From the NCBI RefSeq assembly GCF_000378105.1, contig NZ_KB899254.1:62001-126000 (forward strand): a stretch of DNA of 64,000 nucleotides. Direction: 5' to 3'. The DNA is from Rubritalea marina DSM 17716. Lineage in GTDB: Bacteria; Verrucomicrobiota; Verrucomicrobiia; Verrucomicrobiales; Akkermansiaceae. This document shows positions 32,919-35,537 of the stretch, in pieces. The position numbers and the translations under genes are program-made. The notes below the pieces were generated by a model. It was not told the DNA's origin and searched no databases. It saw only the letters and a list, made by a program, of their open reading frames with translations. Numbering within the stretch: the first letter of the stretch is position 1; each line of letters starts with the position of its first letter.

Positions 32919-35537
32919 TTAGTTTGCCACGATATTGACGAGGCGGCCAGGGACGACGATGACCTTGCGGATCGTGTTGCCGTCGGTGAAAGATTTCACC
33001 TTTTCGTCGTCTAGGGCGATGGCTTCGACATCCTCTTTGGACGCGTCCTTGGAGACCATGAGTTTGGCGCGTACCTTGCCATTGACTTGTACGACGAGCT
33101 GGATTTCTGATTCTACGAGGAATTCCTCATTGAATGTTGGCCAGGTTTGCTCAGAGAGCAAGTTGGCAGTTTTCAGTTGGCAGTTTTCAGACTGAGCCTG
33201 GCTGCCTGCGTCAGCATTCTTTTCTGAACACTGAACACTGAACTCTGACACACTTTGCAGCTGTTGGTTGATTTCCTCGGTGATGTGTGGAGCGAATGGG
33301 TTGAGCACCTTGAGGAAGTCGACGAGGAGGCTCGTTGGGATCTTCTCTGCCTTGGTGAAGGCATTGGTGCAGATCATCATCTGAGAGATCGCGGTGTTAA
33401 AAGACATGGATTCAATGTCTTCGCCGACTTTCTTGATGGTCTCGTGCACCACCTTGAGGAGCGCCTTGTCGGTCGCTGCTTCATCCACCACTTTTTCGGA
33501 GAGTTCCCACTCGCCGGCTTGGTTCTGAGTGAAGACGGCGCGCCAGACTTTGCCGAGGAAGCGGGAGACGCCTTCCACGCCTTTCATTTGCCATGGCTTC
33601 ACCTGAGTGAGTGGGCCCATGAACATCTCGTAGAGGCGGAGTGAGTCGGCTCCGTATTGTTCGACGACTTCGTCTGGGTTGACGACATTGCCGATGGATT
33701 TGGACATCTTCTGTCCATCTTCACCGAGGATGAGTCCTTGGTTGACGAGCTTTTGGAATGGTTCGTTGGTGCTGAGGTGTCCGAGGTCGAAGAGGACCTT
33801 GTGCCAGAAGCGTGCGTAGAGTAGGTGAAGTACGGCGTGCTCGGTGCCGCCTACGTAGAGGTCGACGCCGCCTGGGTTGTCATTGCCGCCCATCCAGTAT
33901 TCTTCAGCCTCTTTGGAGATGAATCGCTCGGAGTTGTTTGGGTCGCAGTAGCGGAGGTAGTACCAACATGAACCCGCCCACTGAGGCATGGTATTGGTCT
34001 CGCGCTCGGCGGTCTCGGAATACTTGATCCAGTCGGTAGCTTTCACCAAGGGGCCGCGTGGGTCGCCGGTTGGTTTGAAGTCTTCCATCTCTGGCTGGAG
34101 CAGTGGAAGCTCGCTTTCATCGAGCACCCTGTGTTGGCCGTCTTCCCAGAGCACTGGGAAGGGCTCGCCCCAGTAACGCTGGCGGGAGAAGAGCCAGTCG
34201 CGGAGCTTGAAGTTGGTCTTGAAGGTGCCTTTTTTGTTGTCGAGAAGCCACTTGATGATCGCCTTCTTGGCGTCCTTGGTCTTCATGCCATCGAGGAAGC
34301 CTGAGTTGATGGACTTGCCATTGCCGGTGAATCCCTGCCAGTCGACTTTCTCGTCATTCGGTTGAACTACTTGAAGGATCGGAAGTTCAAACTTGGTGGC
34401 GAATTCGAAGTCGCGCTCGTCGTGTGCTGGTACCGCCATGATGGCGCCCGTGCCGTAGCCCATCATCACGTAGTCGGCGATCCAGACTGGGATCTGCTCG
34501 CCATTGACCGGGTTCGTCGCGTACGCGCCAGTGAAGACGCCGGACTTGTCCTTGTTGAGGTCGCCGCGTTCGAGGTCGGACTTGGAAGCACAGGCTGCGA
34601 TGTAGGCATCGACCTCATCTTGCTGATCTGCAGTGGTAATTTTAGCAACAAGATGGTGCTCGGGAGCGAGCACCATGTAAGTGGCGCCAAAGAGGGTGTC
34701 GGGGCGGGTGGTGAAGACGGTCACTTCGTTGCCTTCGATATCGAAGTTGACGTCAGCACCGGTGGATTTGCCGATCCAGTTGGTCTGGAGGGCTTTGATA
34801 GAATCTGGCCAGTCGAGTGGCTCGAGCTCGTCGATGAGGCGCTGCGCGAATTTGGTGATGCGGAGCATCCATTGCTTGAGCGGGCGGCGCTCGACGGTGT
34901 GGCCTTTGGCTTTCCATTCTTCCACTTCCTCGTTCGCGAGAACCGTGCCGAGGTCAGGCGACCAATTCACGGGTGCTTCGGAGATGAAGGCGAGGCGTTG
35001 CTCGTCGATCTCTTCGCGAGTGAGGCCTTTGGCTTCGAGCTCGGAGATTGGTTTGGCTTTCTTTTCTTCCTCGCAGAAGTAGGAATTGTAGAGTTGGATG
35101 AAGAGCCACTGGGTCCACTTGACGTAGCCGGGGTCGGTGGTGTTGATTTCACGGTCCCAATCGTAGCCGAAGCCGAGCGACTTGAGCTGCTTGCGGAAGT
35201 TGTTGACGTTTTGTTCGGTGGTGATGCGCGGGTGCTGGCCGGTTTTGATCGCGTATTGTTCCGCTGGAAGGCCGAAGGCATCCCAGCCCATCGGGTGGAG
35301 GACGTTGAAGCCATTCATGCGCTTGTAGCGGCCAAGGATGTCAGTCGCGGTGTAGCCTTCTGGGTGGCCAACGTGGAGGCCGGCGCCAGACGGGTAGGGG
35401 AACATGTCGAGGACGAAGTACTTTGGCTTGGAAGCATCAAAGTCCGCATCGCCTGGGTTTGCGGTGCGGAAGGTCTTGTTGTCGTCCCAGATTTGTTGCC
35501 ACTTTGGTTCGAATGCGTCGAATGGGAATGGTTTCAT
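32919..35537 (-). CDS. leuS: Leucyl-tRNA synthetase with an in-frame repeat insertion
   Basis: 872 residues. Class I synthetase charging tRNA-Leu. [16 protein letters not shown] holds the HIGH motif (HVGH, residues 55-58), and [10 protein letters not shown] (about 607-611) the KMSKS loop. The CP1 editing domain lies between, with [20 protein letters not shown]. Residues about 763-792 are odd: [20 protein letters not shown] and following residues are encoded by a palindromic repeat (33162-33249) inside the anticodon-binding region. It adds about 30 residues without breaking the frame, and the normal C-terminus ([16 protein letters not shown]) follows. The start [14 protein letters not shown] is typical. 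Confidence 0.96.
33162..33249. repeat. Imperfect palindromic heptamer repeat inside leuS
   Basis: The left arm (33162-33190) is built of alternating 7-base units GTTGGCA and GTTTTCA. The right arm (33224-33249) has units CTGAACA, CTGAACA, CTGAACT, CTGACAC. The arms are inverted relative to each other, so the element can fold into a hairpin around a 33-base centre. It sits in the leuS coding sequence in frame. A 21-base piece of the left arm recurs at 35675-35695 with one mismatch. Confidence 0.7.

Follow-up and report, generated by a model that had tools for sequence, protein, structure and literature searches.

The STRRs of Calothrix are heptameric tandem repeats. In the available parts of the respective accounts, the TAACTGA heptamers of Beggiatoaceae and cyanobacteria are described as dispersed and rarely located inside genes (PMC4679880), and G-rich heptamers as mostly non-coding (PMC4692102). 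A heptamer hairpin is described for the Nostoc tRNA-Leu(UAA) group I intron, where degenerate heptanucleotide repeats pair in the P6b stem and repeat classes replace each other at the same place (PMC3488679 and PMC4476775, each in part). The Rickettsia palindromic elements (RPEs) are dispersed palindromic repeats that lie in frame in functional protein genes and add some tens of residues to the products. Intragenic REPs occur in several species, most of the GTAG cases being found in Opitutus terrae (Verrucomicrobia), and also in tRNA synthetases of other species (PMC3733652, in the part available for both RPEs and REPs).

Here, we describe an in-frame heptamer hairpin in leuS, the leucyl-tRNA synthetase (LeuRS) gene of Rubritalea marina DSM 17716, located in a stretch of 64,000 nt that was analysed as a whole (the window). 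An earlier note on this DNA had stated that the insert recalls the RPEs. This comparison holds for the behaviour, namely in-frame hairpin repeats in loops of essential proteins, but not for the membership. Like RPEs, the insert is an inverted-repeat element (28-nt arms, 75% complementary and 31 nt apart) and is placed in frame within a functional protein gene, leuS being the sole copy found. Unlike RPEs, which were compared by description, its arms are built from tandem 7-nt units, and neither end has a CGTC or GTAG tag as these are described in the available part of PMC3733652. RPEs occupy several unrelated genes per genome, whereas only leuS is known to be occupied in frame in this genome, and several unrelated unit sequences play the same role in different species here.

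The insert shares with the intragenic REPs described in the same partly available source an in-frame palindrome in a conserved gene and the phylum of Opitutus terrae, whereas REPs are palindromes of 20–40 bp that bear a GTAG or CGTC tag, and the insert consists of untagged heptamer arrays (PMC3733652). Its 7-nt tandem units with dispersed, mainly non-coding copies resemble heptameric tandem repeats of the STRR and TAACTGA type, and the CTGATAA unit of the L029 and L068 leuS inserts is TAACTGA in another phase. The published heptamers, however, are mostly intergenic direct repeats in the available parts of PMC4679880 and PMC4692102, while the arrays of the insert are inverted and lie inside a conserved enzyme. 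The P6b stem, as described in its partly available sources, is likewise a heptamer hairpin inside a gene, though it belongs to a structured intron RNA and is not protein-coding. No account of heptamer hairpins in verrucomicrobial genes was found among the matches listed in the part of the literature covered. The leuS insert combines intragenic palindromes with heptamer repeats, and the published parallels, in the parts available, describe no heptamer-armed hairpins in conserved proteins of Verrucomicrobia.

Extra length and position of the insert in LeuRS

A single leuS was found in the 3.01-Mb assembly (95.5% complete). Its ORF is open across the insert with no stop, as the earlier note had read it. 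Measured from PHxxEE to QVNGK, the loop region of the window leuS spans 73 residues, compared with 45–55 residues in all 106 rows from other loci. These rows were not deduplicated and come from a survey of 111 loci, 108 of which were measured (two of them being the window gene), L028, L058, and L099 being not measurable. The closest leuS, that of G005 (91% identical over aa 398–761), has a loop of 45 residues and reads INKQLGNDTLLSEQ where the window leuS has INQQLQ, 28 more residues, and NLLSEQ in register. The measured gain is therefore 28 residues, near the 30 or so estimated earlier. The 84 nt are also 12 × 7 by coincidence, the core being not heptameric. The short form in the 106 rows and in G005 rules out a loop of equal length in relatives. 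Neither a leuS of equal length in all relatives nor a lack of other copies in the genome, each of which the earlier note had named as speaking against its reading, was found.

Two other observations concern leuS of relatives. The leuS of the closest relative shifts frame near aa 250 (L128, G005:C1:2384700-2387700), through either a sequencing error or genuine damage. In G001, the assembly breaks between contigs at the insert site, which was suggestive of a repeat as the cause, but the sequence on either side of the break has no heptamers.

The insert site is within the Pfam Anticodon_1 match (aa 690–835 of the product), in agreement with the earlier assignment to the anticodon-binding region. 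In an AF2 model, however, the site is past the last helix (aa 750–768) of the anticodon-binding domain and ahead of the C-terminal domain. The match to Thermus thermophilus LeuRS (1h3n) stops at query residue 756 and restarts at 794, with eight Thermus residues in between. Residues 764–791 show pLDDT below 50 and are flanked by confident domains in the AF2 model; the model of the whole LeuRS is poor (mean pLDDT 58, pTM 0.40), and the C-terminal third alone was used. The insert is thus predicted to be an unstructured stretch between two confident domains, though pLDDT is also low over much of the catalytic core and is consequently weak evidence for disorder of the insert.

Table 1. Coordinates of leuS, the parts of its insert, and related features (window positions unless a genome and contig are given)
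Feature	Position	Strand	Remarks
leuS (leucyl-tRNA synthetase, 872 aa)	32919..35537	-	ORF, Pfam, comparison with other leuS, 1h3n match
Extra 84 nt (28 codons) relative to the loop of the closest relative	about 33162..33245	-	Borders approximate
Left arm, heptamers GTTGGCA / GTTTTCA	33161..33190	+	leuS sense strand: CTGAAAA / CTGCCAA
Core between the arms, 33 nt	33191..33223	.	Not heptamer-built
Right arm, CTGAACA heptamers ×4.3, 87% matches	33224..33254	+	leuS sense strand: TTCAGTG type
Inverted-repeat arms	33164..33191 / 33223..33250
Short array GTTGGCA, GTGTTCA	35676..35693	-	Same units as insert; ~140 nt upstream of leuS start codon
RAYT-like domain in leuS, L400	G021:C66:5880-9065
RAYT-like domain in leuS, L401	G033:C9
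RAYT-like domain in leuS, L402	G057:C12
RAYT-like domain in leuS, L403	G035:C44

Heptamer arms and quality of the palindrome

The unit of the left arm, AGTTGGCAGTTTTC, is repeated 2.1 times with 100% matches, its period of 14 nt corresponding to two heptamers. The insert has a period-7 run of 13 (p 0.003–0.005 relative to random segments of equal length drawn from leuS). The heptamer pattern has four matches in the window, where 0.58 are expected, and only 1 of 100 shuffles reaches as many. Chance low complexity of the arms is ruled out by the shuffles and the period-7 p values.

The longest perfect stem of the insert is 6 bp, which is ordinary (p 0.50). RNA folding of the sense strand gives a z value of −2.24, and 4 of 200 shuffles fold equally well; z is −1.75 for the opposite strand and −1.22 when 11 nt of flank is included on each side. 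The values for DNA folding are −0.98 and −2.00. The ordinary stem and the modest z values indicate an imperfect palindrome of only mild stability, with the heptamer arms as the strong feature. The earlier description of the insert as an imperfect palindrome of 7-base units placed in frame in leuS is borne out by the two 7-nt arrays, the inverted arms, the open frame, and the extra length.

A hairpin-like insert in the mRNA might be removed as an intervening sequence or skipped by translational bypass. We regard this as highly improbable. The insert is in frame and stop-free, so that neither removal nor bypass is required, a Rfam search of the insert region gave no family match, and the folding is only mildly stable.

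The open frame depends on the arrangement of the units. Three consecutive CTGANNN units hit TGA in every frame within 21 nt, and arrays in coding sequences must accordingly be reversed, short, or altered in their units. The same stop-in-every-frame point has been made for the TAACTGA heptamers (PMC4679880, in the part available). One arm of the window insert is read in the stop-free direction. In the other, which is both short and altered in its units, CTGCCAA alternates with just two CTGA units; these lie 14 nt from each other, which leaves neither TGA in frame.

Copies in the own genome and in related genomes

The genome search suggested in the earlier note yields further copies of the units. 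The left-arm sequence recurs exactly, at 31/31 nt, at G000:C10:20696-20726 of the own genome, shortly upstream of an ORF starting MKTISFQDTAF, which presumably resembles histidinol dehydrogenase. Contigs C5 and C26 hold one further array each and contig C7 holds two, and another array of the window lies upstream of leuS (Table 1). CTGANNN ×3 gives nine matches in the own genome, with zero in the backward control. The longest open frames over six other own-genome arrays are 73–83 aa in five cases and 174 aa in one (C5), where the array lies at aa 15–21. With these six arrays checked for open frames, leuS is the only known gene of the genome with an in-frame array, and single arms but no complete two-arm element were found elsewhere in it.

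In the genus, CTGANNN ×3 is present in 7 of 12 genomes and the backward control in 4 of 12. In the family, CTGMMMA ×3 is found in 54 of 244 genomes, with up to 95 matches in one genome, whereas its backward control is found in 5 of 244, with at most 3 matches per strand. The commonest of the 298 units collected are CTGAAAA (105), CTGAACA (59), and CTGAACT (23), counts that are biased because the fetching patterns favour some of the leading units. TTCATC stands 3–12 nt ahead of CTGAA 16 times in four own-genome and 22 G005 loci.

The closest relative also has long CTGAACT/CTGAACA arrays with 23 and 12 CTG units (L173 and L174, G005:C1, about 3412001 and 3429402), which are candidates for length variation between strains. 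Another motif, AACCTAGGGTT, is found beside heptamer arrays elsewhere in the own genome. It has six 1-mismatch matches in the window (14817, 35787, 37362, 37821, 39072, and 40347) compared with 0.43 expected, and 0 of 100 shuffles gave as many.

Hairpin order of paired arrays

Opposite arrays within 170 bp form 17 distinct pairs, of which 13 belong to the CTG class and 4 to the CAATC class. The order is that of a hairpin in all 17 (the TTCAG arm precedes the CTGAA arm, and GATTG precedes CAATC) and reversed in none; some paired loci were picked because the pair was visible, and no reverse-order pair occurs among the matches listed. The cores differ from one another in sequence and range from 21 to 163 nt, five of the 17 being 28–33 nt. 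The core lengths in the window leuS and in the leuS of L102 are 33 and 32 nt, respectively.

These results bear on whether the insert could have grown in place from a chance CTG-containing seed, through slippage during replication and template switching at hairpins, with no outside copy. Period 7 is the hallmark of such growth, a proposal being reported that the polymerase contacts 7 nt of DNA (PMC4679880, in the part available), and corresponding loops of different species hold different heptamers. Nevertheless, one arm of the insert is identical over 31/31 nt to an array elsewhere in the genome, with the same two-unit alternation in both, and the distant L102 leuS holds a two-arm element whose core is of similar length. 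Both observations argue for an outside copy, and local growth is unlikely.

Recurrence of inserts in other leuS genes

The leuS alignment contained 110 rows (29 and 80 loci from two sets, and the window), 94 of which are distinct. Rare inserts were defined as segments of at least 5 residues in columns filled in less than 15% of the rows; 37 such in-frame inserts are present in 24 of the 94 distinct leuS. Signals were scored at p<0.05 against 200–300 random same-length segments of the same gene. A period-7 signal is found in 11 of the 37 inserts (10 of 36 without the window insert) and a perfect inverted repeat in 10, the window insert not being among the latter; 19 inserts have either signal and 18 have neither. 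At the same threshold, periods 4, 5, 11, and 13 are each found in two inserts, period 8 in four, and periods 10 and 15 in one each, while periods 6, 9, 12, and 16 are found in none. Period 14, a multiple of 7, is found in seven. Runs of at least 8 are confined to periods 7 (seven inserts) and 14 (three inserts).

The heptamer class of the window occurs as a hairpin in another loop of the L102 leuS, near aa 555, where irregular unit spacing leaves TGA out of frame. The genome of L102 has 54 matches to CTGMMMA ×2 (control, 0). Besides the CTGATAA units of L029 and L068, the inserts contain AATCNNC units in L097 and L108, which are related species with shared inserts and hence not independent, and CACTCCN-like units in L114. 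Period-7 arrays are also present in L101 and L115, and the inverted-repeat inserts include a 31-bp stem in L126 and a 14-bp stem in L109. Several loops of the L068 leuS (genome G266) are occupied by repeat-like inserts; GTNGGCGTCCCGCCNGC occurs eight times in this genome, seven of them as GTGGGC..., and two in leuS in opposite orientation. For CAATCNN arrays, the genome of L097 has 212, that of L108 has 102, and that of L115 has 29, compared with 0 in the control. CAATC-type arrays are little over the backward control in G005 (6 vs 2), and in G167 they were rejected as a real signal (7 vs 13 in the backward control). The heptamer carriers are scattered, as the common ancestor of 11 labelled leuS spans all tips of a midpoint-rooted tree of 98 leuS.

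Larger inserts of 53–64 residues are present ahead of the KMSKS loop in L064 (aa 615–669) and L116 (aa 625–688), with no repeat signal and no Pfam match of their own.

The genome is assembled in 30 contigs, and the insert might be suspected to be an assembly artefact. Of the explanations considered, this is the one to which we give the least credence: the insert is interior to a contig of 169,721 bases, and the same kinds of insert are found in independent assemblies.

Arrays in other genes

We examined 92 array places, in which overlapping loci are only partly deduplicated. Open frames of at least 100 aa cover 48 of them and frames of at least 200 aa cover 24, most of which look spurious. A Pfam scan of 20 proteins (leuS and 19 other ORFs) placed the array within a recognisable protein in three, namely, leuS, an M20 hydrolase (score under the cut-off, 19.9 vs 24.6 bits), and an N6-methylase-like protein (N6_Mtase score just at the cut-off, 20.6 vs 20.4 bits). 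TatD and guanido-phosphotransferase ORFs were rejected as internal carriers, since the arrays precede the domain.

The M20-type hydrolase gene of G017 (L192/L312, G017:C2:361268-362425), part of which was seen, has two in-frame heptamer inserts at about aa 74–130 and 226–273, each with GTTTGCTAGTGTTCAGTGTTCAGTTT. Both are absent from six genus orthologues (G135, G091, G069, G141, G116, and G109). Other repeat-like sequence occupies both sites in G029 and G104, and the first site in G154. The M20 gene of G154 (L399, G154:C173:1-3600) has its own, different pair of inverted heptamers, which was rejected as being read through because the array contains an in-frame TAG.

One loop encoded by the N6-methylase-like gene of G176 has the sequence PLPENCKLNTENF, which derives from CTG heptamers. 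At the same place, repeat-like loops of other sequence are present in the orthologues, including AATC heptamers in G167. The sequence of this loop differs with each orthologue (L206, L328, L329, L330, and L338), as if repeatedly exchanged.

RAYT-like transposase inside leuS of relatives

The leuS frames of G021, G033, G035, and G057 contain stop-free stretches of 232–246 residues where that of L100 has 23 (Table 1). These four carriers were picked among 58 genomes by a gap of ~700 nt, the remainder being partly read. The stretches contain a RAYT-like (Y1_Tnp) domain of about 230 residues located between the editing domain and the catalytic core of LeuRS. Pfam Y1_Tnp is over the cut-off in all four (31–46 bits, cut-off 23). 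The NCBIfam model of the REP-associated tyrosine transposase is passed by G021 (86.6 vs 80 bits), whereas G033, G035, and G057 fall short (57–70 bits), and the best PDB match of the G021 insert is 4er8 (TnpArep, E 8e-5). All four domains have HVH and YI..NP, the Tyr residue of the latter being what we take to be the catalytic one. RAYT-like domains have been found so far in the leuS of these four relatives only, and we know of no report of a RAYT-like transposase in frame within leuS.

Inverted copies of a REP-like palindrome (19, 26, and 29 nt) are located at both insert ends in three of the four; at the ends of the G033 insert, an exact-match search found no inverted copies of at least 9 nt. 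The L100 leuS has no transposase and is 92.6% identical to that of G021 outside the insert. It retains in frame GGCGGGACGCCGGAGCTCC, which equals the right end of the G021 insert and looks like a REP-like remnant. The carriers are found in three places of the LeuRS tree, as would result either from repeated insertion at a single site or from many losses. Their inserts are 44–51% identical to one another compared with 69–84% for the rest of LeuRS.

RAYT is a plausible agent for REP palindromes (PMC3733652, in the part available). The window insert might be a REP relative moved by this tyrosine transposase, which would give the heptamer hairpins and the REP palindromes in leuS one cause. Consistent with this possibility, some relatives have REP-like palindromes or RAYT-like transposases in their leuS loops, arrays in the own genome and G005 often follow a TTCATC-containing repeat, and the hairpin order is conserved. 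We nonetheless consider it doubtful: the insert ends have neither the GTAG nor the CGTC tag, the core sequences differ, and tandem 7-nt units are not a REP feature.

Origin and significance of the insert

In our judgement, the insert is probably a copy of a dispersed Verrucomicrobiales repeat element that is tolerated in a LeuRS linker and has no new function. The element would consist of a TTCAG-type arm, a short core, and a CTGAA-type arm, that is, two 7-nt arrays in hairpin order. Dispersed hairpins of this kind would enter genes by copying, and those that are in frame, stop-free, and located in loops would survive. The window insert may have been copied as a block from another site in the genome, although no target duplication is visible, its arrays may lengthen by 7-nt slippage, and it would be translated as a disordered, neutral linker of about 30 residues. 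Two features would make it tolerable: the linker is a loop, and the arrangement of the units avoids in-frame stops.

Tandem repeats with a unit that is not a multiple of three are expected outside coding regions, but here 7-nt hairpin repeats recur in a housekeeping enzyme. Structures of LeuRS have been solved and natural inserts abound at about five of its loops, which makes the tolerance, translation, and origin of intragenic palindromes directly testable. A wider reading, to which we give even chances, is that leuS of Verrucomicrobiales repeatedly houses mobile DNA in frame, namely heptamer hairpins, REP-like palindromes, and, in four species, a RAYT-like transposase, all read as loops of the enzyme. 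For a mobile gene such as that of a RAYT-like transposase, an in-frame position in leuS would be an unusual one. If this reading is true, the elements lodged in leuS would be sheltered by the host gene, co-expressed with it, and lost only by an exact deletion that keeps the frame, and the heptamer hairpin of the window would be one resident of this mobile-DNA system. An essential gene would thereby be a home for mobile DNA.
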